The notes: generated by a model from the letters alone, not told the origin. DNA of 64,000 nucleotides from Gemmatimonadaceae bacterium (GCA_011525845.1 WYBP01000014.1:186001-250000), one strand, 5' to 3'; shown: positions 14,303 through 47,301, counted from the stretch's first letter. Program-made: numbers and translations.

Positions 14303-14459
14303 GTCTGACGATAGCACATCAACTGAGGATTCCGATAGCCCCGGACGAATCGCCAAGAAATATGGTTTTTTTGTGATGGAATCGCCGGATTTTTCGGGTG
14401 ATAGTCCTTGGCACCGGTGCCACTTCGGCGCCGCATCCACCAGCCCCACGGAGGCATCC
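14303..14459. promoter_or_regulatory. Divergent promoter region, AraC regulator / DUF4142 operon
   Basis: This 157-bp intergenic stretch separates divergent genes and is much more AT-rich than its surroundings, with a run of seven T around 14366-14372 and a TTTTTC tract near 14392. It must hold both promoters. I see no convincing -35/-10 pair or clean dyad to call as the AraC operator. Confidence 0.5.
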
Positions 14460-15319: not shown

Positions 15320-15339
15320 TCAGGCGCCGTCGCCCGCGG

Positions 15340-29001: not shown

Positions 29002-29023
29002 TTACCTCACAGGATTTGATCGC

Positions 29024-29512: not shown

Positions 29513-30096
29513 GCCGTGATGGCGAAGCGCCTGAGTCCGACGGCGCGACTCCGCTGGATGAGGACGAGATGGCCGCACTCATTCCTCCGAGCGTGACTAC
29601 GCAGGGCGACCTGAACGAGTGGGAACAGGCAAACATCGCCGAGGCGTCACGTTGGCTCGGGTCGCGACGCCGGAGCATTGAGCACGTCCTGTCGGAGAAG
29701 TTCTTGCTCGACGTGCACCGCAGGATGTTCGACCAGACATGGGAGTGGGCCGGGAGCTTCAGGCGAAGCGAGAAGAACATCGGCGTGCCGTGGACCACGG
29801 TCCGGGCCACTATCCGGGAACTGCTCGCCGACACTGCGCACCAAATTGAAAGCCGGAGTACTGCGCACGACGACATCGCGGCTCGCTTCCATCACCGGCT
29901 CGTGGTGATTCATCCCTTCCCGAACGGCAATGGCCGTCACGCGCGACTGATGACGGACGAGCTGCTCAAGTGCCTCGATCGGCCGCCGTTCAGCTGGGGG
30001 TTGGGGACCAGCGACGCTCGCGAACGCTACCTGAGCGCGCTACGAGCTGCGGACAACGGGGACTTCCGGCCAATGGTGGCGTTCGTAAGGAGCTGA
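29509..30096 (+). CDS. Mobile mystery protein B (Fic-family AMP transferase)
   Basis: Predicted 195 aa. The full Fic active-site motif HPFPNGNGRHAR begins near residue 134. Fic enzymes transfer AMP or another nucleotide moiety to target hydroxyls. An N-terminal segment (TTQGDLNEWEQANI) is conserved in this family and may hold an autoinhibitory helix. With protein A it forms a toxin-antitoxin-like pair known from plasmids and genomic islands. It lies 87 bases before the defence operon on the same strand. Confidence 0.92.
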   Translation: MSRDGEAPESDGATPLDEDEMAALIPPSVTTQGDLNEWEQANIAEASRWLGSRRRSIEHVLSEKFLLDVHRRMFDQTWEWAGSFRRSEKNIGVPWTTVRATIRELLADTAHQIESRSTAHDDIAARFHHRLVVIHPFPNGNGRHARLMTDELLKCLDRPPFSWGLGTSDARERYLSALRAADNGDFRPMVAFVRS

Positions 30097-30183: not shown

Positions 30184-33100
30184 ATGGACGTCTTCGCACT
30201 TCGCGAATCCCTCATTGCGCAGTACCGCGCCTTCGCACGGTCGTTCACGACGATCCGCGCCTCGGATATCCGCGCCCAGGTGGACAAGGCTTACCAGAGC
30301 GGTCGCTTCTGGCCGGAGCCGCTCCTGCAGATCAATCCTCGATACAAGTCCGGCCGCCCGGTCTCCGAACTCGTCGCCGACGGCACGCTCGATCCGGGGA
30401 CCGCAGCGCTCTTCCCCGTTGACCTGTACCTGCACCAACTGAACGCCATCGCGATCGCGCGTTCCGAGAAGAGTTACGTCGTCACGACGGGCACCGGCTC
30501 GGGCAAGTCGCTCTGCTTCTTCATCCCGATCGTGGACGCAGTGCTCCGTAGCCGCGCCACGGACCCCACACCGCGCACGCGCGCGATCGTGATCTACCCG
30601 ATGAACGCCCTGGCCAACAGCCAGGTCGAGGAGCTCACGAAGTACCTCGGCGCGGCGGGGCCGGTCACGTTCGCACGATACACGGGCCAGGAGAGCGCCG
30701 AGGAGCGCGACAGGATCCGGCGCCACCCTCCAGACATCCTGCTCACGAACTTCATGATGCTCGAACTGCTGATGACCCGGCAGGCGGAGCTCGACCAAGC
30801 CGTGGTTCGCAATTGTGAAGGATTGCGCTTCCTCGTGCTCGACGAGTTGCACACTTATCGCGGGCGTCAAGGATCAGATGTTGCGATGCTCGTGCGACGC
30901 GTACGGGAAAGACTCGGGGGCCCGAAGCTCCAGTGCATCGGCACCTCCGCTACGATGTCGAGCGGAGATGGCTTCGAAGATCGCACCCGCAAAGTCGCGG
31001 AGGTGGCATCCCGCATCTTCGCCACCACTATCTCCCCCCTTGAGGTCGTCAGCGAGGACCTCGAGCGGACGACAGATCCGTCGCAGACCGCCGAGACCGT
31101 GAAGGATCGACTTGGTGCGGCCGTCGACGACAAGATTCCGGAAGGTTCGACGAACGCGGAATTGCGCGCACACCCACTCGCCATTTGGGTCGAGACGCGG
31201 CTCGGGCTCGACCGTCCGGACAACACCAAATGGGTGCGTGCTCGACCGCTCTCGATCGGCGAGGCTGCGGAAGCCCTTTCGGCGCACTCGGGCCGAGCAC
31301 AGGAGCGTTGCGCGACGGCGCTCCGCGCGTTCCTCCTGCTCGCCTCAACCCCCGAGCGGGACCGGCCTGGCGCCCGCGGCACCGGCGATCGACCGCTCTT
31401 CGCGTTCAAGCTGCATCAGTTCCTGAGCGGTGCCGGCGTTGCCTACGCCACGCTGGACGGGCCCGGGAAGAGACGCGTCGTTCTCGACGGCCAGCAGTAC
31501 CTACCGGGCGACGAGACCCGCCGCCTCTATCACACGGTCTTCTGCCGGGACTGCGGTCAGGAGTATCACCCGGTCCGGTTGCGCCGCGACAGCGGAGACT
31601 CCCTGCTCCTGCCGCGCGACATCGACGATATGCCGGCCCGTCGCGAGGACGCGGATTCAGAGGATGACGACGCCGCCGTCGATTCGGTGAGGGAGCGCCT
31701 CGGCTTTCTCACACCGGCGTCGGTCGGGGAGTCGGAGACTCCTCTGAGCTTCCAGGGACGCCTCGAGGACTATCCAGAGACATGGCTCGAGTTCACGCGC
31801 GCGGGAGTGCTGCGGCTGAAGAAGGGCTACCGTGCACTGGAGGTCGAGCGTCTGGAGATCCGGACCGACGGCACGGTAAGCGCGGGCGCTACACCCTTCT
31901 GGTTCCTGCCGGGAAAGTTCCGCTACTGCGTCCGTTGCTCGACCACGCACGGCGCACGGGGAAAGGACATCAACAGGTTGGCGAGCCTCTCGGCGGAAGG
32001 GCGTAGCTCGGCGACCACGATCGTGGTCTCGAGCACGCTGCGCTGGATGCACGAACAGCAGATGCCGGCCGACCCGCAGGCGCGGAAGCTTCTGAGCTTC
32101 ACGGACAACCGCCAGGACGCTGCACTGCAAGCCGGCCACTTCAACGACTTCACCTTCGTCTCGATCCTTCGCGCCGCGATGTACAGGGCGCTCCGGGACG
32201 CCGGCCCCTCTGGACTGCAGGACGCGCAACTGGGAGCGGCGATCGTCGCGGCACTCGGGTTCGACCGGGTGCTGCGCCCTGGTGAACGGCCTGAGTCGAC
32301 CCACCAGCGGGAGTGGCTCGACGACCCCGCGGTCGGCCCCTCAGACCTGCAGACGGCGCGGGAGACGCTGCGCTCGGTGCTCGCCTACCGGGCATGGTTC
32401 GATCAGCGACGCGGGTGGCGCTACACGAACCCGAATCTTGAGGAGCTCGGCCTCCTCCGGGTGAACTATCGCGACCTGAAGCGCTTTGCGGCTGAGCAGG
32501 CGCGGTTCGCCAGTGCACCGCCACTCCTGCGCGGCGCTTCCCCGGCGACGAGGGAGCGCGTATTCACGCTCGTGTTCGACCACCTCCGCAAGGGTCTGGC
32601 GATCGATGCCGCCGCGCTCGATCGCGATCGGCTCGCTCCGCTGCGCGAGACGTCGCAGAAGCTGCTGCGTGCGCCGTGGGGATTCGCACGCGGCGACGAG
32701 GCGCTTCCCTCCTGTCGCTGGCTCGTGATCGATCCGCCGGCCCGCCGGTCCCTGCGGCTCTCCGACGAGGAGATGCTGCTGCGGGGAGGCTTGCAGACGA
32801 CGCTCGGGAAGTCGCTGCGCTCCGCAGAACTTTGGGAGAATCCGGACGCGACCACGCTGAACACGCAGGCGTACCGAGAGTTGATCGACGCCATCATTCA
32901 CGCGGCAGTTGGTGGAGAGTTCATCCGGCGGATCACGACGACACCTTTCCAATCGGTCGGCTACCAGCTGAACAGCCTGGCGGTCTCGTTCGTGGAGGGC
33001 GCGCCGAGCGAAGGTGACCGGCGTGCCAATCCGTACTTTACCGAGTTGTATCAGGCATTGAGCGGTCTACTCGCGGCTCCCGGGCACCCGCTCTTCGAAC

Positions 33101-35493
33101 TCGAGGCGCGAGAGCACACGGCCCAAGTTGAACCGCGCGTTCGGGAAGTCCGTGAGATGCGCTTCCGCTTCGGTGAGAAGGATCGCGCCGAACTCGCCGA
33201 TCCGGTCGAAGGTTCGCGCGCCGTCGGCGAGTCCGCACGGTTCCTTCCCGCGCTGGTGTGCTCACCCACGATGGAGCTCGGCGTCGACATCTCGGCGCTC
33301 AACACGGTGTACCTGCGCAACGTTCCCCCGACGCCGGCCAACTATGTCCAGCGAGCCGGGCGCGCGGGGCGCAGCGGTCAGGCCGCCCTGGTGGTGACGT
33401 ATTGCGCTGCCCGAAGCCCGCACGACCAGTGGTTCTTCCGCGAGCCAAGGAATATGGTGCACGGCGAAGTGCGTCCGCCGGTGCTGGACCTTGCCAACCG
33501 CGAACTGATCGAGAGTCACTTGCAGGCGGTCTGGCTCGCCGAAACGGCCAAGGAGCTCGACGGGTCCATCGCGAGCCTGCTGCATGTGGACCTCCCAGGC
33601 CTCCCGTTGCGCGAGGAGATCCGCGATGCCCTTGGCGCGGCGGACGTGCGTGAGCGGGCGACCACGCGCGCGACCCGTGTCGTCCAGATGCTTTCGAGGG
33701 AGCTCACGGCCGAAGCGGCGCCCTGGTTCGAGGGCGCTGAAGTACTCGCACGAAGCACGGCCGAGTCCGCGCTCGGGCGCTTCGAGGGAGCCTTTCGGAG
33801 ATGGCGCGATCTGTTCGCCTCAGCCGAACGCCAGCGCGACCTCGCGAACGCTGTGATCGAGAATCACGCGATCACGAACGCTCAGGAGCGGAATGCGGCC
33901 AAGCGGCGCTGGCGGCAGGCGGTCGACCAGATCGAACTGCTCAAGAAGGGTACGGCTTCCCTCTCCAGCGATTTCTATACATACCGCTACCTCGCCACCG
34001 AGGGCTTCCTTCCCGGCTACAACTTCCCGCGACTGCCGCTCATGGCGTTCGTGCCGGGGAGTGCGGACGGATCCACCCGCACCGGGTTCCTCCAGCGCCC
34101 GCGCTTCCTGGGCATCTCGGAGTTCGGTCCGCGATCGCTCGTCTACCACGAGGGCCGGGCGTTCCGAGTGGTCGCGGCGCGGCTCGCGATCGTCAGCGAT
34201 GCCGGCGCCACCGCGGGCACGACGCTTCCCACCTCAGCAGCCCGGGTGTGCACGGCGTGCGGTGGCGCGCACTTCACGGACACGGTCAACCGGTGTCAGG
34301 CCTGCGGGTCGACGCTTGTGGGCGCTCAGAATATCGACAACCTGTACCGGATCGAGAACGTGGACACCGCGCCCACCTTGCGCATCACCGCCAACGACGA
34401 GGACCGGCAGCGTCAGGCATTCGAGTTGCAGACGGTGTTCCAGTGGGCGAGTCGGAGCGGCCGAGTGGATACCCGGGGCGTTCGTGCGAGCGACATCCAA
34501 GGCCCCATTGTCGAGCTGAGGTATGGGCCTGGCGCGACGATCTCACGGATCAACAAGGGCCTGCGTCGCCGGAAGGACCGCACCGTCAACGGATTCCTCA
34601 TCAACCCGCGCACGGGATTCTGGGCGAAGGCCGACGAGGCCGACGACGCGAGCGAGACCACCGCGACTCCGGACCAGACGCCGCCGCAGCGCATCGTTCC
34701 CTTCGTGCAGGACCAGAAGAACGCCCTCCTGCTCACGCCAGCCACTCCACTCGAACTCCGCACCCTCACGACGCTGCAGCATGCCCTGCGACGCGGCATC
34801 GAGACCTCATTCCAGCTCGAGGGCGGCGAGCTGCTGGTCGAACCACTGCCGGACCCCGCAGACCGCCGCGGTCTCCTGTTCTATGAGGCGACGGAGGGCG
34901 GCGCGGGCGTCCTGAGCCGCCTCGTCAGCGAACCGTCGGCCCTCGCGCGTGTCGCCCGGGCCGCGCTGCAGGTGATGCACCTCGACCTCCCTTCCGACGG
35001 CCCCCTCCCAGCACCCGATGGCCTAGAGGACGAACCCGGCACCCTGTGCGTCGCCGGCTGCTACCGTTGCCTCCTTTCCTACTACAACCAGCCGGACCAC
35101 GAACTCCTGGACCGCCGCGATCCCACGGCGCGTGAGATCCTCCTGCGACTGGCCGGCACGACGACTGCACCACTTGCGGACGCGACGCCCCCTGAGCTTC
35201 CGCCGGACGCCTCGGCAGGCACGGACTGGATCGATCGTTGGCACCAAGCGTTCGCCACGGCTCTCCCCGGAGCACCGGTGCCAGCTCGCTCCGACACGGC
35301 AGGTGGCATCGCCCTTCAGTGGCCGCGCGATCTCATCGCGATCGTCCTCCCTGACACCCCAAAGACGGTCGACCGGGAGTGGGATGAACGCGGCTATACC
35401 GTGATCCGCTTCGCCGCCGAGTCGTCGACTTGGGCGGCCTCCTTCCGCAAGCTCGGTCGCCTGCTTGGCACGCCCGGGAGTCAAGCCGAGTGA
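30184..35493 (+). CDS. Giant DEAD-like helicase with C-terminal DUF1998 (DrmA/DrmB- or DruE-like)
   Basis: Predicted 1769 aa. Walker A is VVTTGTGSGKSLCFF near residue 100; the Walker B variant is LVLDELHTYRG and motif III is CIGTSATMSS. Helicase lobe 2 has SFTDNRQDAALQAGHFND, PTMELGVDIS (near 1027) and NYVQRAGRAGRSGQ. Three Cys clusters look zinc-binding: CRDCGQEYHP, YCVRCS, and CTACGG with CQACGS. The C-terminus is DUF1998 (FYEATEGGAGVL, CVAGCYRCLLSYYNQP). In classical DISARM, helicase and DUF1998 are separate proteins (DrmA, DrmB); here both are in one chain. Druantia DruE has a similar build. Predicted to translocate on DNA as the core of a defence complex. No good ribosome site precedes the ATG. 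Confidence 0.88.
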   Translation: MDVFALRESLIAQYRAFARSFTTIRASDIRAQVDKAYQSGRFWPEPLLQINPRYKSGRPVSELVADGTLDPGTAALFPVDLYLHQLNAIAIARSEKSYVVTTGTGSGKSLCFFIPIVDAVLRSRATDPTPRTRAIVIYPMNALANSQVEELTKYLGAAGPVTFARYTGQESAEERDRIRRHPPDILLTNFMMLELLMTRQAELDQAVVRNCEGLRFLVLDELHTYRGRQGSDVAMLVRRVRERLGGPKLQCIGTSATMSSGDGFEDRTRKVAEVASRIFATTISPLEVVSEDLERTTDPSQTAETVKDRLGAAVDDKIPEGSTNAELRAHPLAIWVETRLGLDRPDNTKWVRARPLSIGEAAEALSAHSGRAQERCATALRAFLLLASTPERDRPGARGTGDRPLFAFKLHQFLSGAGVAYATLDGPGKRRVVLDGQQYLPGDETRRLYHTVFCRDCGQEYHPVRLRRDSGDSLLLPRDIDDMPARREDADSEDDDAAVDSVRERLGFLTPASVGESETPLSFQGRLEDYPETWLEFTRAGVLRLKKGYRALEVERLEIRTDGTVSAGATPFWFLPGKFRYCVRCSTTHGARGKDINRLASLSAEGRSSATTIVVSSTLRWMHEQQMPADPQARKLLSFTDNRQDAALQAGHFNDFTFVSILRAAMYRALRDAGPSGLQDAQLGAAIVAALGFDRVLRPGERPESTHQREWLDDPAVGPSDLQTARETLRSVLAYRAWFDQRRGWRYTNPNLEELGLLRVNYRDLKRFAAEQARFASAPPLLRGASPATRERVFTLVFDHLRKGLAIDAAALDRDRLAPLRETSQKLLRAPWGFARGDEALPSCRWLVIDPPARRSLRLSDEEMLLRGGLQTTLGKSLRSAELWENPDATTLNTQAYRELIDAIIHAAVGGEFIRRITTTPFQSVGYQLNSLAVSFVEGAPSEGDRRANPYFTELYQALSGLLAAPGHPLFELEAREHTAQVEPRVREVREMRFRFGEKDRAELADPVEGSRAVGESARFLPALVCSPTMELGVDISALNTVYLRNVPPTPANYVQRAGRAGRSGQAALVVTYCAARSPHDQWFFREPRNMVHGEVRPPVLDLANRELIESHLQAVWLAETAKELDGSIASLLHVDLPGLPLREEIRDALGAADVRERATTRATRVVQMLSRELTAEAAPWFEGAEVLARSTAESALGRFEGAFRRWRDLFASAERQRDLANAVIENHAITNAQERNAAKRRWRQAVDQIELLKKGTASLSSDFYTYRYLATEGFLPGYNFPRLPLMAFVPGSADGSTRTGFLQRPRFLGISEFGPRSLVYHEGRAFRVVAARLAIVSDAGATAGTTLPTSAARVCTACGGAHFTDTVNRCQACGSTLVGAQNIDNLYRIENVDTAPTLRITANDEDRQRQAFELQTVFQWASRSGRVDTRGVRASDIQGPIVELRYGPGATISRINKGLRRRKDRTVNGFLINPRTGFWAKADEADDASETTATPDQTPPQRIVPFVQDQKNALLLTPATPLELRTLTTLQHALRRGIETSFQLEGGELLVEPLPDPADRRGLLFYEATEGGAGVLSRLVSEPSALARVARAALQVMHLDLPSDGPLPAPDGLEDEPGTLCVAGCYRCLLSYYNQPDHELLDRRDPTAREILLRLAGTTTAPLADATPPELPPDASAGTDWIDRWHQAFATALPGAPVPARSDTAGGIALQWPRDLIAIVLPDTPKTVDREWDERGYTVIRFAAESSTWAASFRKLGRLLGTPGSQAE

Positions 35494-38321
35494 CCGAAAA
35501 GACCTCCACCCACGCGTTCGCTCCCGGCAGTCTGGTCCGCGTGCGCGGCCGCGAATGGATCACGCTCCCCGGCAGTTCTGCTGAGACCCTTCGGCTCCGT
35601 CCGCTCTCCGGCTCCGAGCACGACGTCGCGCTAATCCATACCGCCGTGGAGCCGGAGATCGAGCCCGCGACTTTCGCCCCTCCGACGATCGACCAGGAAG
35701 CGGGCCAGGAGTCGGCACTCCTGCTGCGCGACGCGATGCTCCTTTCCCTGCGGCGCGGCGCGGGACCGTTCCGCAGCTTCGGCAACCTCGCCGTGGAGCC
35801 GCGCGCCTACCAGCTCGTGCCCTTGCTGATGGCGCTCCGCCTCGATCCGGTACGGCTCCTGATCGCGGACGACGTGGGCGTCGGCAAGACGATCGAGGCC
35901 GGGCTCATCCTGCGGGAACTCCTCGATCGCGGCGAAGTCGCGCGGTGTGCAGTCCTCTGCCCGCCGCACCTCGTGGACCAGTGGGTCCACGAACTGCGGG
36001 AGCGATTCCACCTCCAAGCCACGGCCGTCACTGCGACGAGCGCCGGACGCCTCGAGCGTGGACTCCCGGTCAACGAGTCGATCTTCTCGGTGCACGACTT
36101 CACGGTCGTCTCGCTCGACTACATCAAGAGCGCGCGCCGTCGGGACGACTTCGTCCGGGCGTGCCCCGAGTTCGTGATCGTGGACGAAGCGCACACCTGC
36201 GTGGACCGCGGGTCAGGCCAGCACCTGCGCTACGAGCTCCTGGGCGCGCTCTCGGCGTCGGAGAGCAGGCACTTACTGCTCCTCACCGCCACTCCGCACA
36301 GTGGCGACGAGTCCGCCTTCTATCGGTTGCTCGGACTGATCGATCCGCAGTTCGAGCGGCTGGAGGATGCCGAGCACAAGGAACGCGATCAGCTGCGGGA
36401 GCGACTCTCCAGGCACTTCGTGCAGCGGCGCCGGCCTGACATCGACGAGTGGAGGGAGAATCCGCTCTTCCCGCAGCGCGAGGTCGCCGAGCTGACCTAC
36501 GCGCTCTCCGGCCCCTGGCAGCGCTTCTTCGACGCCGTGCTCGACTACTGCGCCGAACGCGTGCGCGCCTCCGGCGAGGACGCGCTCCACCAACGCCTCA
36601 CATTCTGGGGAACGCTCGCCCTGATGCGCTGCGTCTCCAGCAGCCCGGCGGCAGCGTTGCGCGCGCTCCGCACACGCCTCCCGGCGGACCCGGAGGGTGA
36701 TCCGGCCGCGATCGATCGCGTGCTCGATGGCGGTGCCGACGCGCTCCCCGAGGACGACCTCGAACCGGGCGCGGACAGCGGGGACTCGGCGCTCGCGACA
36801 CTGCGACGGCAGGCGGAACAGCTCGCCGGCCTGGATGACGATCCGAAGCTGCGGCTGGTCGCGGAACATGTCAGCCAGCTCGTCTCCGATGGCTTCTCCC
36901 CTGTCGTCTTCTGCCGGTACATCGCCACCGCGCACTACGTGGCGCATCACCTGCGCGCGCGCCTGCCCGACCATGAGATCGGGGTGGTGACGGGCGAACT
37001 CCCATCCGACGAGCGGGCCGAGGCGGTGGAGCGGCTCACCGATGCCGAGGGCCCGCGGATCCTCGTGGCCACCGACTGTCTCTCTGAGGGCGTCAATCTG
37101 CAGGAGGCGTTCGACGCGGTAGTGCACTACGACCTCTCCTGGAACCCCACGCGGCACGAGCAGCGCGAGGGACGCGTGGACCGCTACGGCCAGACCAGTC
37201 CGCGCGTTCGCGCCACGCTCCTCTACGGAGAGAACAACCCGGTGGACGGCGCGGTACTGCACGTGATCCTCCGCAAGGCGGAGAGCATCCGTCGTGAGTT
37301 GGGCGTACCCGTGCCGATGCCCGATGACGGCCAGACCCTTCCCAAGGCGCTCATGCGCGCCGTGATGCTCCGTCGCGGCGACCGGCGACAGGGCGACCTC
37401 TTCGCGGACCTCGACGACACCCCGGAGGTGCGCGACCTCACCGTCAACTGGACCTCGCTCGCCGAGAAGGCCAAGCGCAACCGCACGGTCTTCGCGCAAC
37501 GCCGATTGCGGCCGGACGACGTGATCCCCGAGTGGAAACGGATGCAGGAGTCGCTCGGCTCGCGGCAGGACGTCGTGCGCTTCGCACACCACGCACTCGC
37601 CCGCCTCGGCGCTCCGCTGCAGTCACTCGGGAGCCGCGCGCACCCGCGTGCCGTTCGGCTCCCCTTGGCTGGACTTCCGCCCGCGCTCCGCGAGCGTCTC
37701 GCCGCCGACGGGCTGGTCGATGCGGAGCGCCTCGACTTCGACGTGCCGCCGCTTCGGGGCGCACGACACATCCATCGCAGCCATCCGCTGGTCGCCGCGC
37801 TCGCGGAGGAGCTGCTCGAGCGGGCGCTCGACGAGGGCACGGCAGTCGGCGCGGGCGCGCTCGCGCGACTGGGCCGTTGCGGTGCGTGGCGCACCCCCGC
37901 CGTCGAGCGGCAGACACTCGTTCTCCTGCTGCGCATCAGGCATCAGCTGCAAGCCACATTCCGCACGCGGGACGGGAGCGAGATGCGCAGGGTGCTGCTC
38001 GTGGAAGAGGGCGTGCCCGCGGCGATCGTCGGACGCCAGGCACCGGAGTTCGTCACGGCCTCGGAGGTGCTCACCTGGCTGGAGACGGCGGCCGGAAGCG
38101 ACCTCACCCCCGCGGCTCGCCACCGCGCGCTGGAAGCCGGACTCCAGCTGATGCAGGCCGCACTTCCCACACTCGACGCGTTCGCCGCCGTACAGTCCGA
38201 GCGGCTGCTTGCGGACCATCGCCGGGTGCGAGAGGCTGCGGGAGCGCGCGGCAAGTACGAGGTGCGGCCGCTCACACCCGTTGATGTGGTGGGCGCCTTC
38301 GTTCTGCTTCCCGAGGCCTGA
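35490..38321 (+). CDS. drmD: DrmD-like SNF2 helicase
   Basis: Predicted 943 aa from a GTG that overlaps the upstream stop (GTGA). The N-terminus (APGSLVRVRGREWITLPG) is typical of DrmD. SNF2 core: Walker A DDVGVGKTIEAGLIL near residue 125, DEAH box VIVDEAHTC, motif III LLTATPHSGDE. Lobe 2 has VATDCLSEGVNLQEAFD and HEQREGRVDRYGQTS. A C-terminal region of about 350 residues follows the helicase core. In class 1 DISARM, DrmD accompanies an adenine methylase and drmAB. Its strong coupling to a DUF1998 helicase and the following methylase is the main support for calling the operon DISARM-related. Confidence 0.85.
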   Translation: MTEKTSTHAFAPGSLVRVRGREWITLPGSSAETLRLRPLSGSEHDVALIHTAVEPEIEPATFAPPTIDQEAGQESALLLRDAMLLSLRRGAGPFRSFGNLAVEPRAYQLVPLLMALRLDPVRLLIADDVGVGKTIEAGLILRELLDRGEVARCAVLCPPHLVDQWVHELRERFHLQATAVTATSAGRLERGLPVNESIFSVHDFTVVSLDYIKSARRRDDFVRACPEFVIVDEAHTCVDRGSGQHLRYELLGALSASESRHLLLLTATPHSGDESAFYRLLGLIDPQFERLEDAEHKERDQLRERLSRHFVQRRRPDIDEWRENPLFPQREVAELTYALSGPWQRFFDAVLDYCAERVRASGEDALHQRLTFWGTLALMRCVSSSPAAALRALRTRLPADPEGDPAAIDRVLDGGADALPEDDLEPGADSGDSALATLRRQAEQLAGLDDDPKLRLVAEHVSQLVSDGFSPVVFCRYIATAHYVAHHLRARLPDHEIGVVTGELPSDERAEAVERLTDAEGPRILVATDCLSEGVNLQEAFDAVVHYDLSWNPTRHEQREGRVDRYGQTSPRVRATLLYGENNPVDGAVLHVILRKAESIRRELGVPVPMPDDGQTLPKALMRAVMLRRGDRRQGDLFADLDDTPEVRDLTVNWTSLAEKAKRNRTVFAQRRLRPDDVIPEWKRMQESLGSRQDVVRFAHHALARLGAPLQSLGSRAHPRAVRLPLAGLPPALRERLAADGLVDAERLDFDVPPLRGARHIHRSHPLVAALAEELLERALDEGTAVGAGALARLGRCGAWRTPAVERQTLVLLLRIRHQLQATFRTRDGSEMRRVLLVEEGVPAAIVGRQAPEFVTASEVLTWLETAAGSDLTPAARHRALEAGLQLMQAALPTLDAFAAVQSERLLADHRRVREAAGARGKYEVRPLTPVDVVGAFVLLPEA

Positions 38322-38324
38322 GCG

Positions 38325-41300
38325 ATGGCCCGACGCGCAGGGGCGCTGATCGAGTTCGACGCGCTCACGATCGAGGGCTCGCTCCTGCCCGCCGAGTGGC
38401 TGAGCACCGTGGCGGCACTCAAGGCACCGGCGCAGGCCGAGGCTGACTACGGTGTGCCCAAGGGACTCCAACTGCGCGACGAGATCGCGCGCTTCTGGCA
38501 CATCGCTGAAGCACTCTGGGCCGAGGCGGAGGCGGCCCGGGTAGCGCACCAGGACCCGGAGCAGGTGAGCCGGCAGTTCACGCGCCAGCTGCTGGAAGAG
38601 GTGCTTGGTTTCGAGGAGCTCGAGCGCGATCTCACGCGAGAGATCGGCGGACGGGAGTTCACGCTCGCGTTCGAGGGGACCGGAGGACGCGCACCGGTCG
38701 TGGTCGTGGGCGACTCCACACCGCTGGACGAGAGTGTCACCGCACTCGGCGATGGCGGTCGGAGGCGCAGTGCGTGGGGTGCGCTGCAGGAGTATCTCAA
38801 CGCCACCGACGGTGCGCTTTGGGGAATTGCCACCAACGGCCGCCAGCTCCGGCTTGGACGCGACAACGCCTCGCTGACGCGCCCCGCCTGGCTCGAAGTG
38901 GATCTCGAACGGATCTTCCCCGAGGAGCGCTTCGCGGACTTCTCGGTCCTCTGGCTCGTCCTGCACGCGAGTCGCTTCGGACGCGCCGAGCAGCTGCCGC
39001 ATGAGGCCCCGCTGGAACGATGGCGCGAACAGGCGCAGGCGCAGGGGAGCCGCGCGCGCGACCTGCTGCGCGACGGGGTGGAGGAAGCCCTGCGCGAGCT
39101 CGGAATCGGGTTCGTCGAGCATCCATCGAACGCGATGCTGCGCGGTGCCATCGAGGATGGTTCGCTCTCGGCGCGGGATCTCTTCGCCGAACTTCTCCGG
39201 CTTGTCTACCGGATGATCTTCCTGCTCACGGTCGAGGAACGCGGGATCCTCCACGCCTCGGGCGTCTCCGGAGAGACCGCAGCGCTCTATCGCGAGGGGT
39301 ATGGCCTGCGCCGCTTGCGCGAGCGCGCGCTCCGCCGGTCCGCGCATGACCGGCACGGTGACCTCTGGATCTCGCTCCGACCGGTCTTCGCCGCCCTCGG
39401 CCGGCCCGGAGGAGAGCCGGCGCTCGGACTCCCCGCGCTCGGCGGCCTCTTCGCCGCGGGCCAGTGCCCACATCTGGACGGCGCCGCGCTGGCCAACAAC
39501 CGCCTCCTCGCGGCGGTCTTCCGCCTGGCGTGGATGCGAGAAGGAGCATCCCTCGCGCGCGTGAACTGGAAGGACCTTGGAGTGGAGGAGTTCGGAAGTG
39601 TGTACGAGTCTCTTCTCGAACTCGAACCGCAGGTGGACACCGAAGCTCGCTCCTTCTCGTTCGCCAGCCAGGAGGGGAGTGCGGGAAACGCCCGGAGGAC
39701 GACGGGGAGCTACTACACGCCCGACTCGCTCGTGCAGCAGCTGCTCGACACCGCGCTGGAGCCGGTGGTCGCCGCGCGGCTCGCGGGGGTGGGCGCGCGC
39801 GACGTTGCCGCGGCTGAGCGCGCACTCCTCGCCATCACCGTGGTGGATCCCGCGTGCGGGAGCGGTCACTTCCTGCTGGCGGCGGCGCGGCGGCTGGCGG
39901 CGCACCTCGCACGTTTGCGCGCAGGGGGAACCCCGGGGGCCGCCGAGTACCGACTAGCGCTGCGGGACGTCGTCACCCATTGCATCCATGGCGTGGACCG
40001 TAACCCGATGGCGCTGGAGCTGGCGCGGATGGCGCTCTGGCTCGAGGCGTACACGCCTGAGCGGGCGCTCGGCTTCCTCGACCATCACCTGCAGTGCGGC
40101 GACGCCCTGCTCGGCATCTTGGACACCGGCTCGTTGCGCGAGGGGATCCCGGAAGGAGCGTTCAAGGCGCTGACGGGAGACGACGCCGCGGTCGCACGGC
40201 TCCTCAAGAGGCAGAACAAGGAGGGCCTCAGGGCGCTGGAGCAGGCGAAGGAGAGCGGTCAGTTCACAATGGACCTGGGGCTGGGTGCGTTCGAGAAAGC
40301 GTATGACGAGCTGGAGGCGCTCACCGACGATGCGGTTTCCGGTGTTGAGGCGAAAGCAGCCAAGTACGGCGAACTCCGCGAGGCGGTGCTGGGGGGGCGC
40401 GTGGCCATCGCGGCGGACCTGTTGCTTGCCGCCTACCTCACGCCGATGCGGCTGCCCGCGGGTGCGCGAGCGCTCACCGAGCAGCAGGCGAGGGAGCGGT
40501 TCGCGACGACGGCGTCACTCTCGCTGGCGCTGGAGGGACTGCTCTCTCCCGATGCAGGGGTCGCCAAGACGGCGCGCGCGGTCTGCACTGCGGCGCGGGT
40601 CTTCCACTGGCCAATCGCGTTCCCGCAGATCTTCGCCAGGGGCGGGTTCGATGTGGTATTGGGGAATCCGCCGTGGGAGGTCTCTCAGTTGAACGAGCGC
40701 GAGTTCTTTCTCGCGCTTGCGCCAGAGATCGCGGCGCTCGCTAGCGCGCGGCGCAAGCAGGCTATCGCCTCGCTTGAGCAGGAGCGACCGGCCTTGTGGG
40801 AGATGTACCTCACCGAGAAGCGGAAGTTCGAGGTTACGAACACCTTCTGTCGTGATGCCGGCCGCTTCAGTCTCACCGCGCGAGGCAAGCTCAACACCTA
40901 TGCGCTCTTCGCCGAGACGATGCTCCGCATGTTTCGCGGGTCGGGCCGAGTGGGTTTCATCGTGCCGACGGGCATCGCCACCGACGACACTACCAAGGAA
41001 TTCTTCGCGGCGGTGTCGGGGTCTGGGCGGCTGGTCTCGCTTCTCGACTTCGAGAATCGGGACGCGGTGTTTCCGGCCGTCCACCGGAGCTACAAGTTCT
41101 CGCTGGTTACACTGGGTGACGCCGAATCGGCCGAGTTCTCCTTCTTCGCCACGTACGTGGCACAGCTCCACGATGCGCGACGACGATTCAGACTGAGGCC
41201 GGACGAGTTCGCGTTGATCAACCCGAACACACACACCTGCCCGACATTCCGGAGTGAATTCGACGCCGAGCTGACGAAGAAGATCTACAAGCGTGTTCCG

Positions 41301-42230
41301 GTGTTGATTGATGAGACGAAACCGGACGAGATCGGGAACCCGTGGGGGATCTCGTTCTCTCAGGGGCTCTTCAACATGGCGTCGGACAGTCACCTCTTCC
41401 TCGACCGGCCAGTGCGAGACGCGGTGCCGTTGTACGAGGCAAAGATGATCCATCAGTTCGATCACCAGTGGGCGACGTACGAGCGTTCCAGCGGCGGCGG
41501 GGCGCCGACGGTGCGGGACGTGACGGACGCGGAGAAGGCGGATCCCGCATTTGAGGTGACGCCGCGGTACTGGGTGCCGCAGGCGGAGGTCGAGGCGCGA
41601 CTGGAGTCGTACAGCGCTGCCGGTGCCCGGCTTTATGGCTGGCGACGAATTGCCAGAACGACGGACGAGCGAACAATCCTTGCCGCGGTTATACCGAGGG
41701 TCGGAGTTGGTGACAGCCTGTTTCTCTGGATGTTTGGCACCGACATATCCGATCGGCTGCGCCTAGCGTTCTTAGCTATCGCCAATTCACTCGTTTTCGA
41801 CTATGTGGCGCGCCAGAAGATCGGTGGTACGAATGTCAGTTTCTATTACATGCGGCAGCTTCCTGTTCCAAGTCCGGCCTCGCTATCTCCCGAACTGACT
41901 CGGTGCCTCTCCGAGGACGCCGCAGCCCTTGTCGGGACACGGCTGCATGACTCGACGTCCGACTCGAAACCGCTCTCGATCGATGAAGAAAATACGTGGA
42001 ACTCAGATCGCCGAGCGTATCTGCGTGCGACTATCGACGCACGCGTCGCTCGGCTGTATGGATTGAGTCGGGACGAGTTGCGTTACGTTCTCGACCCCAC
42101 TGAGCTTCTGGGGCCTGACTACCCCTCCGAGACCTTCCGCGTCCTCAAGGACAAGGAGCTTCAGCAGTACGGTGAGTATCGCACCCAACGCCTCATCCTC
42201 GACGCGTGGGACCGCCTTTTCGGCGGCTGA
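38325..42230 (+). CDS. Large N6-adenine DNA methylase (Eco57I / DrmMI-like)
   Basis: Predicted 1301 aa, three bases after the helicase. AdoMet motif I is VVDPACGSGHFLLAA near residue 507; catalytic motif IV is VLGNPPWEV near 779, the NPPW form of adenine methylases. The N-terminal ~450 residues resemble the helical part of type IIG and PglX/DrmMI proteins (WGIATNGRQLRLGR). I see no secure nuclease motif there. The C-terminal ~350 residues should recognise DNA; this part is markedly lower in GC than the rest of the gene. It probably marks host DNA so the helicases act only on unmodified DNA. Confidence 0.88.
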   Translation: MARRAGALIEFDALTIEGSLLPAEWLSTVAALKAPAQAEADYGVPKGLQLRDEIARFWHIAEALWAEAEAARVAHQDPEQVSRQFTRQLLEEVLGFEELERDLTREIGGREFTLAFEGTGGRAPVVVVGDSTPLDESVTALGDGGRRRSAWGALQEYLNATDGALWGIATNGRQLRLGRDNASLTRPAWLEVDLERIFPEERFADFSVLWLVLHASRFGRAEQLPHEAPLERWREQAQAQGSRARDLLRDGVEEALRELGIGFVEHPSNAMLRGAIEDGSLSARDLFAELLRLVYRMIFLLTVEERGILHASGVSGETAALYREGYGLRRLRERALRRSAHDRHGDLWISLRPVFAALGRPGGEPALGLPALGGLFAAGQCPHLDGAALANNRLLAAVFRLAWMREGASLARVNWKDLGVEEFGSVYESLLELEPQVDTEARSFSFASQEGSAGNARRTTGSYYTPDSLVQQLLDTALEPVVAARLAGVGARDVAAAERALLAITVVDPACGSGHFLLAAARRLAAHLARLRAGGTPGAAEYRLALRDVVTHCIHGVDRNPMALELARMALWLEAYTPERALGFLDHHLQCGDALLGILDTGSLREGIPEGAFKALTGDDAAVARLLKRQNKEGLRALEQAKESGQFTMDLGLGAFEKAYDELEALTDDAVSGVEAKAAKYGELREAVLGGRVAIAADLLLAAYLTPMRLPAGARALTEQQARERFATTASLSLALEGLLSPDAGVAKTARAVCTAARVFHWPIAFPQIFARGGFDVVLGNPPWEVSQLNEREFFLALAPEIAALASARRKQAIASLEQERPALWEMYLTEKRKFEVTNTFCRDAGRFSLTARGKLNTYALFAETMLRMFRGSGRVGFIVPTGIATDDTTKEFFAAVSGSGRLVSLLDFENRDAVFPAVHRSYKFSLVTLGDAESAEFSFFATYVAQLHDARRRFRLRPDEFALINPNTHTCPTFRSEFDAELTKKIYKRVPVLIDETKPDEIGNPWGISFSQGLFNMASDSHLFLDRPVRDAVPLYEAKMIHQFDHQWATYERSSGGGAPTVRDVTDAEKADPAFEVTPRYWVPQAEVEARLESYSAAGARLYGWRRIARTTDERTILAAVIPRVGVGDSLFLWMFGTDISDRLRLAFLAIANSLVFDYVARQKIGGTNVSFYYMRQLPVPSPASLSPELTRCLSEDAAALVGTRLHDSTSDSKPLSIDEENTWNSDRRAYLRATIDARVARLYGLSRDELRYVLDPTELLGPDYPSETFRVLKDKELQQYGEYRTQRLILDAWDRLFGG

Positions 42231-42257
42231 TCCGTCACCGCCAACGCTGGCATCCGC

Positions 42258-43064
42258 ATGCCCACGCCCCCACCCCTCGGCACCCTGCAGCGCAAGGCCA
42301 TCGCCGATGCCGGATTCGACCTCGATCCCGTCGCCGATGCCGGCTGGTGGCGGCTCGGAATCTCCGGCGTCCCGGGCACCTGCTGGGTCGCATCGGGCGA
42401 TCGCGGTACCGCGATCGCCCTCTCCCTCGCCGAACAGCACGACGAGCTGGTCACGGCGCACGGAGGGGGACTACCACTGTCCGAGGTGTCCGCCGCCGTG
42501 CGGGATGCCCTCCCCGCCGCGCCTGCGGGCGCCACAGGCGCCCTCCACTGCCCCACCGAGGGATCGCTCTTGGGAGCGCTCCAACGAATCAGGGCACTTC
42601 TGCTCGCTGCCCCCATGCGACTCATGGCTCGGGTCGAAGAGCGTAGCGCACGAGTCGGCACCACGGAAGCACTGGCGGAGGTCAGGCGCCGCATCGGACA
42701 GGACCTCTATCGCGAGGCGCTCCTGGGCTACTGGAACTCCGCCTGCGCCGTCACCGGGCTTCGCGTGCCGGAACTCCTCCGGGCCAGCCACGCCAAGCCG
42801 TGGAAAGATTCCTCCGACCGCGAACGGCTCGACGTCTACAACGGGGTTCTCCTTGCGCCACATCTCGACCTGGTCTTCGACTCGGGCTTCGCCACTTTCG
42901 CCGACGACGGCCGGCTGCAGTTCAGTGACCAGCTGACGATCGAAGCGCGCGCCTCACTCGGACTTACCGCCGGTGAGCCAAGGCTCCGGTGGGTGGCCCC
43001 CCAGCACCTTCCGTACCTCAAGTGGCACCGCACGAAGGTGTTCCGCTCCACCCCTGCTACCTGA
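42258..43064 (+). CDS. HNH_2-type endonuclease
   Basis: Predicted 268 aa, 27 bases after the methylase. The C-terminal half holds an HNH_2 nuclease domain: CAVTGLRVPELLRASHAKPW, then ERLDVYNGVLLAPHLDLVFD and FATFADDG. The His in ASHAKPW and the Asn/His in YNGVLLAPHLD are the likely metal and catalytic residues. The N-terminal ~120 residues (DADAGWW-like, with GISGVPGTCWVASG) are unassigned and may contact a partner. In this operon it could be the cleaving component of the defence system. Confidence 0.82.
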   Translation: MPTPPPLGTLQRKAIADAGFDLDPVADAGWWRLGISGVPGTCWVASGDRGTAIALSLAEQHDELVTAHGGGLPLSEVSAAVRDALPAAPAGATGALHCPTEGSLLGALQRIRALLLAAPMRLMARVEERSARVGTTEALAEVRRRIGQDLYREALLGYWNSACAVTGLRVPELLRASHAKPWKDSSDRERLDVYNGVLLAPHLDLVFDSGFATFADDGRLQFSDQLTIEARASLGLTAGEPRLRWVAPQHLPYLKWHRTKVFRSTPAT

Positions 43065-43071
43065 GGCGCAC

Positions 43072-44379
43072 ATGGATCAGTCATTGCTGATCGCGCTGGT
43101 CCTGCTTGGCGGGTCGCTGCTCGGTGGAGTGGTCACGTGGGTGGTCGCGGCCGGGCGGCACGCCGGTGCCCGCGCCGCCGACCGGGTCCGCCTCGTCTCG
43201 CTGGAGAAGGACCTCGAACTGGCGCGTCATCAGGCGAGCGCGCACGCGGAGGCCTTCGAGCGCGCGGAGTCCAGGTTCCGGGAGGCCTTCCAGTCGCTGG
43301 CCGGCGACGCGCTCCGCGCGAACGCCGACCAGTTCATCACCCGCGCCGGTGAGGCGATGGAGGCGATCCGCCGACAGTCGCTGGGGGAGATCGACCAGCG
43401 TCGCGAGTCGATCGCGCACCTGGTCGCACCCATCCGGGAGCACCTGGAGAAGGTCACAACGCGAGTGGACGAGCTCGACCGCATTCGGCAGGAGGCGGAT
43501 GGCGCGCTCCGACAGCACCTGACCGCGATGCAGACCGGGCAGCGCGAGGTTGCAGAACAGACACGGCACCTCGTCCAGGCCCTTCGTGCACCGCAGACCC
43601 GCGGCCGGTGGGGCGAGCTGCAGCTGCAGCGCGTCGTGGAGCTTGCCGGGATGGCCGAGCACGTGGATTTCGAACAGCAGGCCACGTTCGACTCCGATGC
43701 CGGGAAGCTGCGTCCAGACCTGGTCGTCCGACTTCCCGGAGGGCGGACGATCGTCGTGGATGCCAAGACTCCCCTCGATGCGTACCTTCGCGCTGTCGAA
43801 GCCGTGGAGGTGTCATCGCGCGAGCTCGCCCTGAGGCAACATGGCCAGCAGTTGCGTACGCACGTCACGCAGCTCGCCGGCAAGGGCTATTGGGACCAGT
43901 TCACCGACACACCCGACTTCGTCGTGATGTTCGTGCCGGGGGAGGCGTTCCTGAGCGCGGCGTGCCTCGAGGATCCACGACTGTTGGAGGATGCGCTCGA
44001 GAAGAAAGTGATCCTCGCCTCCCCCACGATGCTCGTCGCTCTCCTCCGCACCGTGGCTCTCGGCTGGCGGCAGGAGAAGCTCGCGGAGCACGCGGAGCGG
44101 ATCAGCGAGGATGCGCGCGAACTCCTCGATCGCCTGGCCGTGATGGCGGAGCACTTCGATGGCATGGGTGACAAGCTGCGAGGCGCCGTCAAGGCGTATG
44201 ACCAGACGGTGGCGACACTCGAGAGCCGCGTGCTGGTCACCGGCCGGCGGATCCGCGAGCACGGCGTATCCGGAAAGAAGGAGCTCCCAGAACTCACGCC
44301 GATCGGCCAGGAGCCAAGGCGGCTCAGCGCCGCCGAGTTGACTGAGCACCTTCCTCCACGCACCAACGAGCAATCCTGA
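43072..44379 (+). CDS. rmuC: RmuC-family protein with PD-(D/E)XK-like nuclease fold
   Basis: Predicted 435 aa, seven bases after the HNH gene. An N-terminal membrane helix (LLIALVLLGGSLLGGVVTWVV) is followed by a long coiled coil (about residues 35-190). The RmuC domain has RGRWGELQLQRVVELAGMA and the nuclease-like core RPDLVVRLPGG followed by IVVDAKTPLDAYL. RmuC in Escherichia coli limits recombination at inverted repeats; its biochemistry is poorly known. Housekeeping rmuC is normally stand-alone, so its place inside a defence operon suggests an added nuclease role here. A coincidental chromosomal copy is the alternative. Confidence 0.9.
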   Translation: MDQSLLIALVLLGGSLLGGVVTWVVAAGRHAGARAADRVRLVSLEKDLELARHQASAHAEAFERAESRFREAFQSLAGDALRANADQFITRAGEAMEAIRRQSLGEIDQRRESIAHLVAPIREHLEKVTTRVDELDRIRQEADGALRQHLTAMQTGQREVAEQTRHLVQALRAPQTRGRWGELQLQRVVELAGMAEHVDFEQQATFDSDAGKLRPDLVVRLPGGRTIVVDAKTPLDAYLRAVEAVEVSSRELALRQHGQQLRTHVTQLAGKGYWDQFTDTPDFVVMFVPGEAFLSAACLEDPRLLEDALEKKVILASPTMLVALLRTVALGWRQEKLAEHAERISEDARELLDRLAVMAEHFDGMGDKLRGAVKAYDQTVATLESRVLVTGRRIREHGVSGKKELPELTPIGQEPRRLSAAELTEHLPPRTNEQS

Positions 44380-44421
44380 GTCCGTTCGGCCAAGGACGTC
44401 TCCTCCCATCCGGTACAGCAC

Positions 44422-46161
44422 ATGGCTTTCGAACGCCCCATCAGCATCGCCGACGCCGTCCAGGCGATCAACGAACAGCGCTACGTGCTTCCGGCCATCC
44501 AGCGGGAGTTCGTCTGGAAGCCGGAGCAGATCATCCGGCTCTTCGATTCCCTGCTCAAGGGGTACCCCATCGGGTCCTTCCTCTTCTGGACCATCGGAGA
44601 GCAGCAGGTGAAGCAGTACGCGTACTACAACTTCGTTCGTGACTACCATGAGCGCGACGCCACGCACAACCCGAAGGCGTCCATCTCGCGAGCGGGGGAC
44701 CTCACGGCCGTGCTCGACGGGCAGCAGCGTCTCACGGCATTGTACATCGGTCTCAGCGGCACGCACGCCGCACGGAAGGCGAAGGCCTGGCGCAATAACC
44801 CGAACGCGTACCCGAAGCGCCGCCTCTATCTCTGCCTGACCGCCCGCCCTGACGACGCTGAGTTCACCTACCTGCTCCGGTTCCGCGAAGAGAAGGACGA
44901 CATCGTCCGCGATGAGGGTGGTCAGACCTGGCTCCGGGTCGGGGCGATCCTCGACTATCAGTCGATCGCGCAGGTGTTCAAGGTCCTCGCCGCGGAGGAG
45001 CTGGGCAACGACACCACGGCCGTGGATGCGATGAACGCGCTCTGGGAGGCCGTTCGGTTGCATCCCGTCATCTCCGCGTACCTCGTCAAGTCCGACGACC
45101 TCGACCGGGTCCTGAACATCTTCGTGCGTGTCAACAGCGGCGGCACGGTCCTCTCCTACTCCGACCTGCTGCTCTCGATCGCCACCGCGGAGTGGAAGGG
45201 TACGGACGCGCGCGAGGAGATCCACGAGCTCGTGGACGAGATAAACAAGATCGGGCAGGGGTTCGACTTCTCGAAGGACTTCGTGCTGAAGACCTGCCTG
45301 ATGGTCGCGGACCTGGAGACGCGTTTCTCGACGGCGAACTTCTCGCGCGACAACATGCGACTCATCGAGAAGCGATGGGAGGAGATCAAGAAGTCGATCG
45401 AAGTCACGGTGGAGCTACTGCATTCGTTCGGGCTTTCGTCCGCCACGGTCACGTCGGCGAATGCCGTGGTGCCGATCACGTACTACATCTCGAAGCGCAA
45501 GCTCGGCTCGTCGTTCGTCACCGGAAAGGCACACCGGGAGGACAGGGACGCGATCAAGCGTTGGCTGCTCCGTGCTCTGCTCAAGCGCACCTTCACCGGC
45601 CAGCCTGACTCGATCCTCCGCGTGGTGCGTCTCACCATCGCCGCTGACGGAGCAAAGGCCTTTCCGGCGGAAGCGATCGTCGCGGCGCTCGCCGGCGAGT
45701 CGAGGACCATGACCGTGTCCGATGCCGACCTCGATGGGATGCTGGAGGAGACGTACAAGAGCGGATACGCCTTCTCGACGCTCGCCCTGCTCTACCCCAC
45801 CCTCGACTTCCGCAACCAGTTTCATCTGGACCACATGCACCCGCGATCGACCATCACGCGGAAGAAGCTGTCGGCCGCCGGCGTGTCCGATGGTCAGGTG
45901 CGCGAGGAGTGCGTTCGGCGCCGGGACGACATCGTGAACCTGCAGTTCCTCCCGGGAACACAGAACCTCGAGAAGTCGGCGACACCGTTCGCCAAGTGGT
46001 TCGCTTCTGAGTTCGGCAAGAACGCGCGCGCAGCCTCCGAGTACAGGGAGTTGCACTACGTACCGGAGCACGTCGGACACGACGTTGGCGATTTCGTGGA
46101 GTTTACCGATGCGCGACGCGCGCTCATGAAGGATGCGCTCAGGGAGGCGCTCGGTGCCTAG
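44422..46161 (+). CDS. DUF262-HNH protein (GmrSD-like restriction nuclease)
   Basis: Predicted 579 aa, 42 bases after rmuC. The N-terminal DUF262 domain is clear: VLPAIQREFVWKPEQIIRLF, LLKGYPIGSFLFW and the nucleotide-binding VLDGQQRLTALY near residue 98. The C-terminal domain has an HNH nuclease of DUF1524-like type (HLDHMHPRS near 471, then NLQFLPGTQNLEKSATP). GmrS/GmrD-type proteins form NTP-stimulated, modification-dependent restriction enzymes. It may be the last gene of the defence operon or an independent adjacent system. Confidence 0.88.
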   Translation: MAFERPISIADAVQAINEQRYVLPAIQREFVWKPEQIIRLFDSLLKGYPIGSFLFWTIGEQQVKQYAYYNFVRDYHERDATHNPKASISRAGDLTAVLDGQQRLTALYIGLSGTHAARKAKAWRNNPNAYPKRRLYLCLTARPDDAEFTYLLRFREEKDDIVRDEGGQTWLRVGAILDYQSIAQVFKVLAAEELGNDTTAVDAMNALWEAVRLHPVISAYLVKSDDLDRVLNIFVRVNSGGTVLSYSDLLLSIATAEWKGTDAREEIHELVDEINKIGQGFDFSKDFVLKTCLMVADLETRFSTANFSRDNMRLIEKRWEEIKKSIEVTVELLHSFGLSSATVTSANAVVPITYYISKRKLGSSFVTGKAHREDRDAIKRWLLRALLKRTFTGQPDSILRVVRLTIAADGAKAFPAEAIVAALAGESRTMTVSDADLDGMLEETYKSGYAFSTLALLYPTLDFRNQFHLDHMHPRSTITRKKLSAAGVSDGQVREECVRRRDDIVNLQFLPGTQNLEKSATPFAKWFASEFGKNARAASEYRELHYVPEHVGHDVGDFVEFTDARRALMKDALREALGA

Positions 46162-46191: not shown

Positions 46192-47301
46192 TCAGTCGGA
46201 CGCCGAACCCTCAGCAGGCGCCCACTGATAGCGTTCTTTGAGATCGTTCAGGTGACTGTGCGGCACGCGCCCGTCGTGCTGCAGACGCCCGACAACGATT
46301 CCGGGCGCAATCCCTATGCTCTTCGCGAATGAGCGCACTGCTTGAGCTGAGGGCAACTCAGTCATGCAGAACTCCAGGTACGTAGCTGGAGGGATCAGGA
46401 AGTCAGACGCCCATCGATTTGCCTGTTCTTCTTCGACGCTGTCAGCCGTTTTTGTCGACTCTACGAATATCAGTTTCTTGCCGTGAAGAAGGATGTGCGC
46501 AGCTTCGTGAAAGAATGTGAACCACAGATGATCGTTCGTCTTGTAGCGAAGACTCAGCTGAATCAGCGCTCTCTCAGGACTGACCCATCGCGTCGCACCG
46601 GAGGCACGCGATCTGGGAAGTTCTGGCACAAACACGACCGCTACTCCAGCGGCGGCGCAGGCGTCCCTGAGTTTCGGCATGAAAGTCGCCGGTGGCTCGC
46701 AGGTGAGCGCTCGAACAGCCTTCAGCGTCTCCGAGAACTTCTCGTGGTCGAACGGTTTCGTGTCAATCGCCATGGATTCGAGGATCCCCCGCCGCATCCA
46801 CGCAGCGAGGGAGTACTCATCGGGCGCGAACGCCTGAGACATCCGGAACGCGGCCTGGCTTTGAGCATAGACCTCGCTCCACTGAGAGAACGAGACAACA
46901 CCAAAGAATGAGAGGACGCTGCGAACGAGTTCCACTCGACCCTTCGCGTCGGGAATCCATCCGCTCTCCTTCATCGCGCGAAGCGGAAACTTCCGACAGA
47001 ACGCGTACTCATCCTCCAATCGACGCGCCTCTTCGAGGGAGGCGAGGTACGCCCGGTAGGCGCGTTCTCGGGCGTTCCAGAAGTCGGCCGGCACTCCAGT
47101 GACCAAGGCCAACTGCATCGCCGTTTCTGGTGTGATGGCCGCTTTGCCGCTCGCGATCTCGCTGATCGTCTTTCGAGGACGGCCCATGCGGCTTGCCAAC
47201 TCCGCCTGAGAGATCGCGCGATCCTCGAGCAGCTCACGGAGCGTCTCGCCTGGCGGTGAGACGCTGTCGGGGAGGTACTCGGTCGTTCGAATGTCAGCCA
47301 T
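46192..47301 (-). CDS. higA: HigA-type antitoxin fused to an ImmA/IrrE (M78) metallopeptidase
   Basis: Predicted 369 aa. Residues ~15-75 are a HigA-type helix-turn-helix (AISQAELASRMGRPRKTISE, then VTGVPADFWNARERAYR). The C-terminal half carries a zinc-peptidase motif HEAAH in FHEAAHILLHGKK (near residue 265) and EEQANRWASDFLIPP, typical of ImmA/IrrE. The start overlaps the toxin gene by eight bases. It should repress the operon and neutralise HigB; the peptidase may cleave a regulator. Rows such as 46441-46500 are near 50% GC, far below the window average. Confidence 0.9.
   Translation of the reverse strand: MADIRTTEYLPDSVSPPGETLRELLEDRAISQAELASRMGRPRKTISEIASGKAAITPETAMQLALVTGVPADFWNARERAYRAYLASLEEARRLEDEYAFCRKFPLRAMKESGWIPDAKGRVELVRSVLSFFGVVSFSQWSEVYAQSQAAFRMSQAFAPDEYSLAAWMRRGILESMAIDTKPFDHEKFSETLKAVRALTCEPPATFMPKLRDACAAAGVAVVFVPELPRSRASGATRWVSPERALIQLSLRYKTNDHLWFTFFHEAAHILLHGKKLIFVESTKTADSVEEEQANRWASDFLIPPATYLEFCMTELPSAQAVRSFAKSIGIAPGIVVGRLQHDGRVPHSHLNDLKERYQWAPAEGSASD

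Follow-up and report, generated by a model that had tools for sequence, protein, structure and literature searches.

We analyzed a 64,000-nucleotide stretch of DNA from a Gemmatimonadaceae bacterium (GCA_011525845.1, WYBP01000014.1:186001-250000; hereafter the window) that carries six consecutive genes at positions 30184-46161, the first four of which likely represent a variant lineage of the defense system ARMADA type I. All six open reading frames (ORFs), named g1 to g6, are intact and lie on the + strand, and the gaps between them (-4, 3, 27, 7 and 42 bases) are short enough to suggest a single transcript. An earlier note on this DNA had given the same strand and spacing, with which the ORF coordinates agree, and its gene family labels are borne out by Pfam matches far beyond chance for g1-g6. 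It had also read the set as a DISARM-related system that it did not recognize as described, in which DrmA and DrmB are fused and the nuclease DrmC is replaced by three others, and had allowed that part of the set might be a separate neighboring system.

The first gene, g1 (30184-35493, 1769 amino acids (aa)), encodes an ArmC-like superfamily 2 helicase resembling YprA and DruE, with a fused DUF1998 (MZB) zinc domain. Pfam matches to DEAD (2e-28), MZB/DUF1998 (2e-9) and Helicase_C (6e-9) all fall within this single ORF, and the DUF1998 region matches MrfA in structure. The second gene, g2 (35490-38321, 943 aa), which starts with GTG and overlaps g1 by 4 bases, encodes an ArmA-like helicase of the BrxHII/RapA (SNF2) kind with SNF2 and Helicase_C domains; its PADLOC matches are DpdE (PDLC02853, 1e-190, full length), DrmD (5e-80) and BrxHII (2e-55). 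The third gene, g3 (38325-42230, 1301 aa), encodes an ArmB-like N6-adenine DNA methyltransferase similar to PglX and DrmMI (Pfam Eco57I N6-methylase, 4.5e-17; PADLOC DrmMI, 3e-62) and also close to type IIG enzymes. Its full-length homologues are 36-52% identical, and its NPPW motif is invariant across relatives.

ARMADA was named in 2025 (Bell et al. 2025, bioRxiv, September 2025, PMC12458937), and the main text of that paper describes it as two helicases, one YprA-like and one BrxHII-like, together with a PglX-like methylase, with the genes of type I generally in this order. The same genes in the same order are found in g1-g3. The fused helicase is nearer to Druantia than to DISARM in PADLOC scores (DruE 1e-87 versus DrmA 8e-16), and the BrxHII-like and PglX-like identities of g2 and g3 follow from profiles and from homology to E. 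coli ArmA and ArmB. In a comparison with the E. coli locus L162, g2 matched ArmA (E 3e-47), g1 matched ArmC (8e-31) and g3 matched ArmB (9e-23). L162 lies on an IncY plasmid and has the order ArmA-B-C-D, as in ARMADA type II. By sequence, then, g1-g3 are the published ARMADA type I core in both content and order, and the operon very probably serves to fight viruses.

A different reading would make the locus a DISARM variant in which DrmC was swapped for new nucleases. Here g2 and g3 do score with the DrmD and DrmMI models, but g1 is DruE-like rather than DrmA-like and has its DUF1998 fused, none of the listed PADLOC matches was to DrmB or DrmC, and the genes are arranged as in ARMADA I. DISARM, including a new fused form of it, was rejected on the g1 profile, the fused DUF1998 and this order, and we regard the variant as very improbable. 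The profile comparison proposed in the earlier note thus upholds the DrmD-like and DrmMI-like labels and not a DrmA-like one. It was right to see a defense-type operon related to DISARM, which is not itself DISARM. The fusion that it took as a novelty is ordinary, since according to the main text of PMC12458937 the helicase and DUF1998 are normally fused in the YprA family and DISARM is the split exception. A Dpd identity, raised by the g2 match to DpdE, was also rejected, the operon being without deazaguanine genes; ARMADA helicases are probably picked up by the PDLC02853 model, under which loci of this kind would receive the wrong name. It should be kept in mind that PADLOC 2.0 scores operons of this kind under Dpd, DISARM and Druantia names.

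Relatives were gathered by similarity to g3, yielding 80 genome loci, the top-ranking ones among at least 419 confirmed matches and those closest to the query, and 8 plasmid loci, so that the survey covered about 85 related loci; viral contigs yielded one partial locus. The g1 alignment comprised 71 homologues, ORFs were called mechanically, and trees were built by quick searches for g2 and for the g1 core without its C-terminal domain. It is this domain (35221-35475) that sets the window apart. The main text of PMC12458937 reports a C-terminal Vsr nuclease, predicted to be active, on the helicases of ARMADA I and II. In the alignment, the Vsr signature PDF..Y ... DGxxH persists in many relatives, and the window and the relatives nearest to it have lost it. 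Pfam DUF559 matches several of the intact homologues and not the window g1. The AlphaFold2 model of the window domain reached a predicted local distance difference test (pLDDT) score of 88, and VIA-align matched model residues 179-265 to 3hrl (Z 7.6) and I-Bth0305I (3r3p, Z 6.9), which are moderate Z values; Foldseek alone did not recognize the domain. On the basis of the family alignment, the Pfam matches of the intact homologues and the moderate VIA-align result, the domain is best read as a dead Vsr-type PD-(D/E)xK fold. Because the catalytic motif is lost and the fold is kept in prediction, we call the locus a variant lineage and not a typical ARMADA I.

Further examination of the trees revealed that the dead-Vsr loci form a single clade (Shimodaira-Hasegawa-like approximate likelihood ratio test (SH-aLRT) 97) in the g2 tree as well as in the g1-core tree, and that Vsr was lost in one event. 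This clade comprises 36 surveyed rows from several phyla. With E. coli ARMADA II ArmC as root, an outgroup on a very long branch, it is nested inside intact ARMADA I, and g1 falls among loci of matching gene content.

Directly behind the core lies g4 (42258-43064, 268 aa), which encodes an HNH endonuclease (Pfam HNH_2, 7e-8). Its family was found in 37 of the 71 tabulated loci and, among loci with enough downstream sequence, in 33 of the 40 that have no aligned Vsr catalytic pair versus 4 of the 22 that have the pair. Five of the seven exceptions without HNH lie outside the main clade and have a Vsr that is altered or truncated and not clearly dead (L028, L088, L104, L105 and L062). Within the dead-Vsr clade itself, HNH is present in 33/35 scorable loci, being absent only from L025, where an IS21 element directly follows g3, and L081. 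The gene stands from 0 to 8.2 kilobases behind g3, with assorted inserted genes between, and the slots around it hold DUF2326/SMC, UvrD, Schlafen, kinase-helicase, AAA and M78 genes; on pISP0 of Sphingomonas sp. MM-1 (L023), for example, it comes immediately behind the methylase. Even so, HNH divergence follows that of g2 (Spearman rho 0.75, 0/2000 permutations) as closely as g3 divergence does (also 0.75). The HNH gene therefore recurs behind the core and is co-inherited with it. Moreover, the sister group of the dead-Vsr clade consists of six Pseudomonadota loci with intact Vsr, and four of these, L051 and L045 among them, also have HNH, which accounts for all four intact-Vsr HNH loci. Loci with both nucleases in this position point to HNH having been gained first and Vsr having decayed afterwards, an order of events that the sequences suggest.

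ARMADA loci outside the main survey were also fetched, and 298 genomes of Gemmatimonadota, the phylum of the window, served as an out-of-sample set, the phylum being judged from the named relatives L034 and Gemmatirosa (L144). Two of these genomes (G177 and G250) have a dead Vsr and strong HNH-family matches on other contigs of their fragmented assemblies, and G055 and seven further genomes, several of them near-copies, have an intact Vsr and no such HNH match. A Paracoccus locus (L163) carries HNH inside the operon together with a dead Vsr. In Deinococcus radiodurans pMP1 (L164), Vsr is intact and HNH was not found. All of these agree with the pairing of HNH and dead Vsr. The methylase of this ARMADA I locus in a model organism is divided over two main ORFs, behind which lies an IS630 element, and McrBC genes are nearby.

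Other genes were also seen behind the methylase. A DUF2326/SMC-like gene of ~660 aa is located between methylase and HNH in L024, L029, L033, L048, L049, L051, L064, L068, L070, L072 and L094; in such loci the methylase is usually lengthened to about 1500-1650 aa, and the gene looks like a recurrent add-on module. In the altered-Vsr loci L104 (stretch 13876-17359), L105 (13873-17320), L028 (16411-21964) and L088 (14043-20157), the gene directly behind the methylase is McrB-like, of the EVE-AAA kind in L028 and L088; three of these four have a McrC or DUF2357-PDDEXK gene behind it. An McrBC pair is possibly another nuclease replacement in two altered-Vsr lineages, which is only a lead because the intact-Vsr locus L042 also has a McrB-like gene beside g3.

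The HNH domain of g4 (residues ~130-265) is closest to that of the modification-dependent EVE-HNH enzyme VcaM4I (6yex; E 1.6e-22; Z 17.9 and 32% identity over 137 aligned residues). Its HNH motifs are intact, and H178, which aligns with the catalytic H224 of VcaM4I, is predicted to be the catalytic residue. In the VcaM4I study, the H224A mutant served as the inactive form, and a linker helix keeps the HNH domain inactive (PMC7897488). By analogy, this autoinhibition is a possible model for how g4 might be kept safe until recruitment. The similarity could also mean that g4 is an independent type IV enzyme acting against phages with modified DNA and merely linked to ARMADA. In its N-terminal domain (residues ~1-122), though, Pfam and structure comparison gave no EVE or SRA match, which is weak evidence, and the only matches were weak ones to frataxin-like folds and the MotA C-terminal domain (Z about 6.5). 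A casual neighbor would hardly be expected to persist in 33 of 35 loci of the dead-Vsr clade and to diverge in step with the core, and we consider an independent enzyme improbable.

The last two genes appear to have a different status. The product of g5 (43072-44379, 435 aa) is an RmuC-family nuclease (Pfam RmuC, 4e-97) with an N-terminal hydrophobic stretch, and g6 (44422-46161, 579 aa) encodes a DUF262/GmrSD-like protein (Pfam GmrSD_N, 2e-30) that matches PADLOC HEC-05 over residues 1-577 (2e-212). It is conceivable that all six genes form one machine, a novel system that would require the HNH, RmuC and DUF262 proteins as its three effectors. Such a machine would fit the short intergenic gaps, and RmuC proteins (ShdA) reported inside DISARM-like operons of Pseudomonas provide a precedent for RmuC capture by operons of this type (PMC10270631). 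In addition, in a Gemmatimonadota metagenome-assembled genome (L034, 13862-16400), HNH is directly followed by a HEC-05 gene of 59% identity, with no RmuC between. However, none of the other ARMADA loci surveyed has RmuC, which was rejected as a recurrent component. The g5 gene is the sole RmuC copy in its genome; across the genome itself and its relatives, RmuC occurs anywhere in 44 of the 98 genomes searched, and in two genomes of the same genus the RmuC proteins are only 26-30% identical. HEC-05 homologues are widespread on plasmids, many of them small, and their 426 records far outnumber the plasmids that carry ARMADA; HEC-05 also occurs on its own and is an autonomous mobile gene, at times adjacent to ARMADA. 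A GmrSD-family gene was present in 6/37 HNH loci versus 1/34 others of the tabulated set, which is suggestive of a preferred partner and not of an obligate part. Unrelated genes in the slots around HNH, as in defense-island cargo, likewise count against a six-gene machine, and we think it quite unlikely.

We therefore favor the reading in which g1-g4 form the ARMADA unit, and g5 and g6 are probably co-transcribed accessory genes at the 3' end of the operon, g5 being specific to this locus. By analogy, g6 would most likely add a type IV-like restriction of modified DNA. BrxU, an enzyme of the GmrSD family, provides such restriction beside BREX. Of the three effectors proposed in the earlier note, only the HNH nuclease recurs with the core in the conserved neighborhood, RmuC does so in none of the other surveyed loci and HEC-05-type genes do so in a minority; its caution that part of the set is separate neighboring material proved apt for RmuC and HEC-05. 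Its nuclease replacement also stands in part: a usual nuclease has probably been replaced by HNH, and the one replaced is the fused C-terminal Vsr, not DrmC.

Besides these accessory genes, both flanks carry genes of their own. Upstream, a helix-turn-helix gene (28979-29512, + strand) overlaps a Fic-domain gene (29509-30096, + strand) of the 'mobile mystery protein B' family (TIGR02613, 7e-67), which also matches the PADLOC candidate PDC-S04; neither was found in the other surveyed ARMADA loci. The downstream end is occupied by an XRE-M78 (HigA/IrrE-like) gene (46192-47301, - strand), overlapped by a short gene upstream of it (47294-47629, - strand) that resembles a RelE/HigB toxin by eye and for which Pfam gave no match. 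Judged by sequence features, the two are likely a toxin-antitoxin pair at the end of the island. In an empty-site comparison using the flanking esterase, synteny was not conserved among the relatives fetched.

It is likely that g1-g4 constitute an ARMADA type I lineage with a dead Vsr in cis and the HNH protein g4 as an effector in trans. In such a system, g3 would methylate adenines at host recognition sites, as its motifs indicate, and g2 and g1 would load on foreign DNA that is unmethylated or contains single-stranded DNA and translocate along or unwind it, in the manner of MrfA, DrmAB and DruE. The g4 protein would be recruited to the engaged DNA, possibly via the dead Vsr as a dock and/or its own N-terminal domain, and would cut it with its VcaM4I-like HNH domain. 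This mechanism is plausible by analogy because of results on ARMADA II and the cooperation of Druantia III with ZorE. According to the main text of PMC12458937, the ARMADA experiments were made on type II, where protection is non-abortive and is abolished by deletion of any of the four genes. In Druantia III, DruE is a helicase-nuclease, and the HNH nuclease ZorE acts on DruE-shaped DNA in trans (PMC13192584).

Several points weigh against an effector role of g4. Because the genome loci surveyed were the 80 nearest to the query, the frequencies are biased towards the clade of the window. Since Vsr was lost once, its association with HNH is one evolutionary event, which the Fisher p value (1e-6) ignores; the contingency p was rejected as standalone evidence on that ground and because a test on independent pairs had too few pairs. 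Another nuclease may act in L025 and L081, and HNH could have been retained for a part in specificity or regulation instead of as a replacement effector. In the literature, no phage data were found for this lineage or any ARMADA type I. Stronger evidence than the contingency table is the co-divergence of HNH with the core despite its variable position. We find it somewhat probable that the HNH-armed form of ARMADA I is a subtype in its own right, present in several phyla, in which HNH was recruited and Vsr was then lost, the dead fold maybe being kept as a dock. This subtype is undescribed in the literature searched; in the main text of PMC12458937, the word 'HNH' occurs once, and RmuC and DUF262 are not mentioned. 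The earlier impression of an unrecognized system does not hold for the core, which is ARMADA I; the likely exchange of Vsr for HNH is the new point relative to published ARMADA. It seems that a YprA helicase engine is able to swap a fused Vsr for a separate HNH cutter, and the surviving loci with both nucleases look like intermediates. Dead Vsr plus HNH provides a simple marker for subdividing ARMADA I, and the lineage allows the question of which nuclease cuts to be tested directly by genetics.

Compared with known systems, the window has DrmD-like and DrmMI-like genes in common with class 1 DISARM, which differs in its separate DrmA and DrmB and in its DrmC PLD nuclease; the operon encodes no PLD protein, and g1 is not DrmA-like. 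Dpd places the DpdE helicase in a 7-deazaguanine cluster, which the operon does not have. Shield (ShdA) resembles g5 at the level of the RmuC family and HEC-05 matches g6 over its full length, both genes being appended here to an ARMADA operon. VcaM4I has an HNH catalytic domain in common with g4, and its N-terminal EVE modification reader is not recognizable in g4. Druantia III (DruH-DruE) likewise has a YprA-family helicase, DruE, that reportedly cooperates functionally with a separate HNH nuclease, ZorE of Zorya II (PMC13192584), but it is without a methylase or RapA helicase, DruE keeps its fused nuclease, and ZorE comes from another system. ARMADA type II (ArmABCD), as described in the main text of PMC12458937, has homologous ArmA, ArmB and ArmC in the order ArmA-ArmB-ArmC-ArmD, and its fourth gene encodes a RelE-GajB-like helicase, not an HNH nuclease as in the window. 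The closest system is ARMADA type I, with which, going by the same text, the window shares all three core genes and their order, including the NPPW PglX-like methylase and a fused YprA-DUF1998 helicase that is nearer Druantia than DISARM; from it the window differs in its catalytically degenerate Vsr, its dedicated HNH gene, and the appended RmuC and HEC-05 genes.

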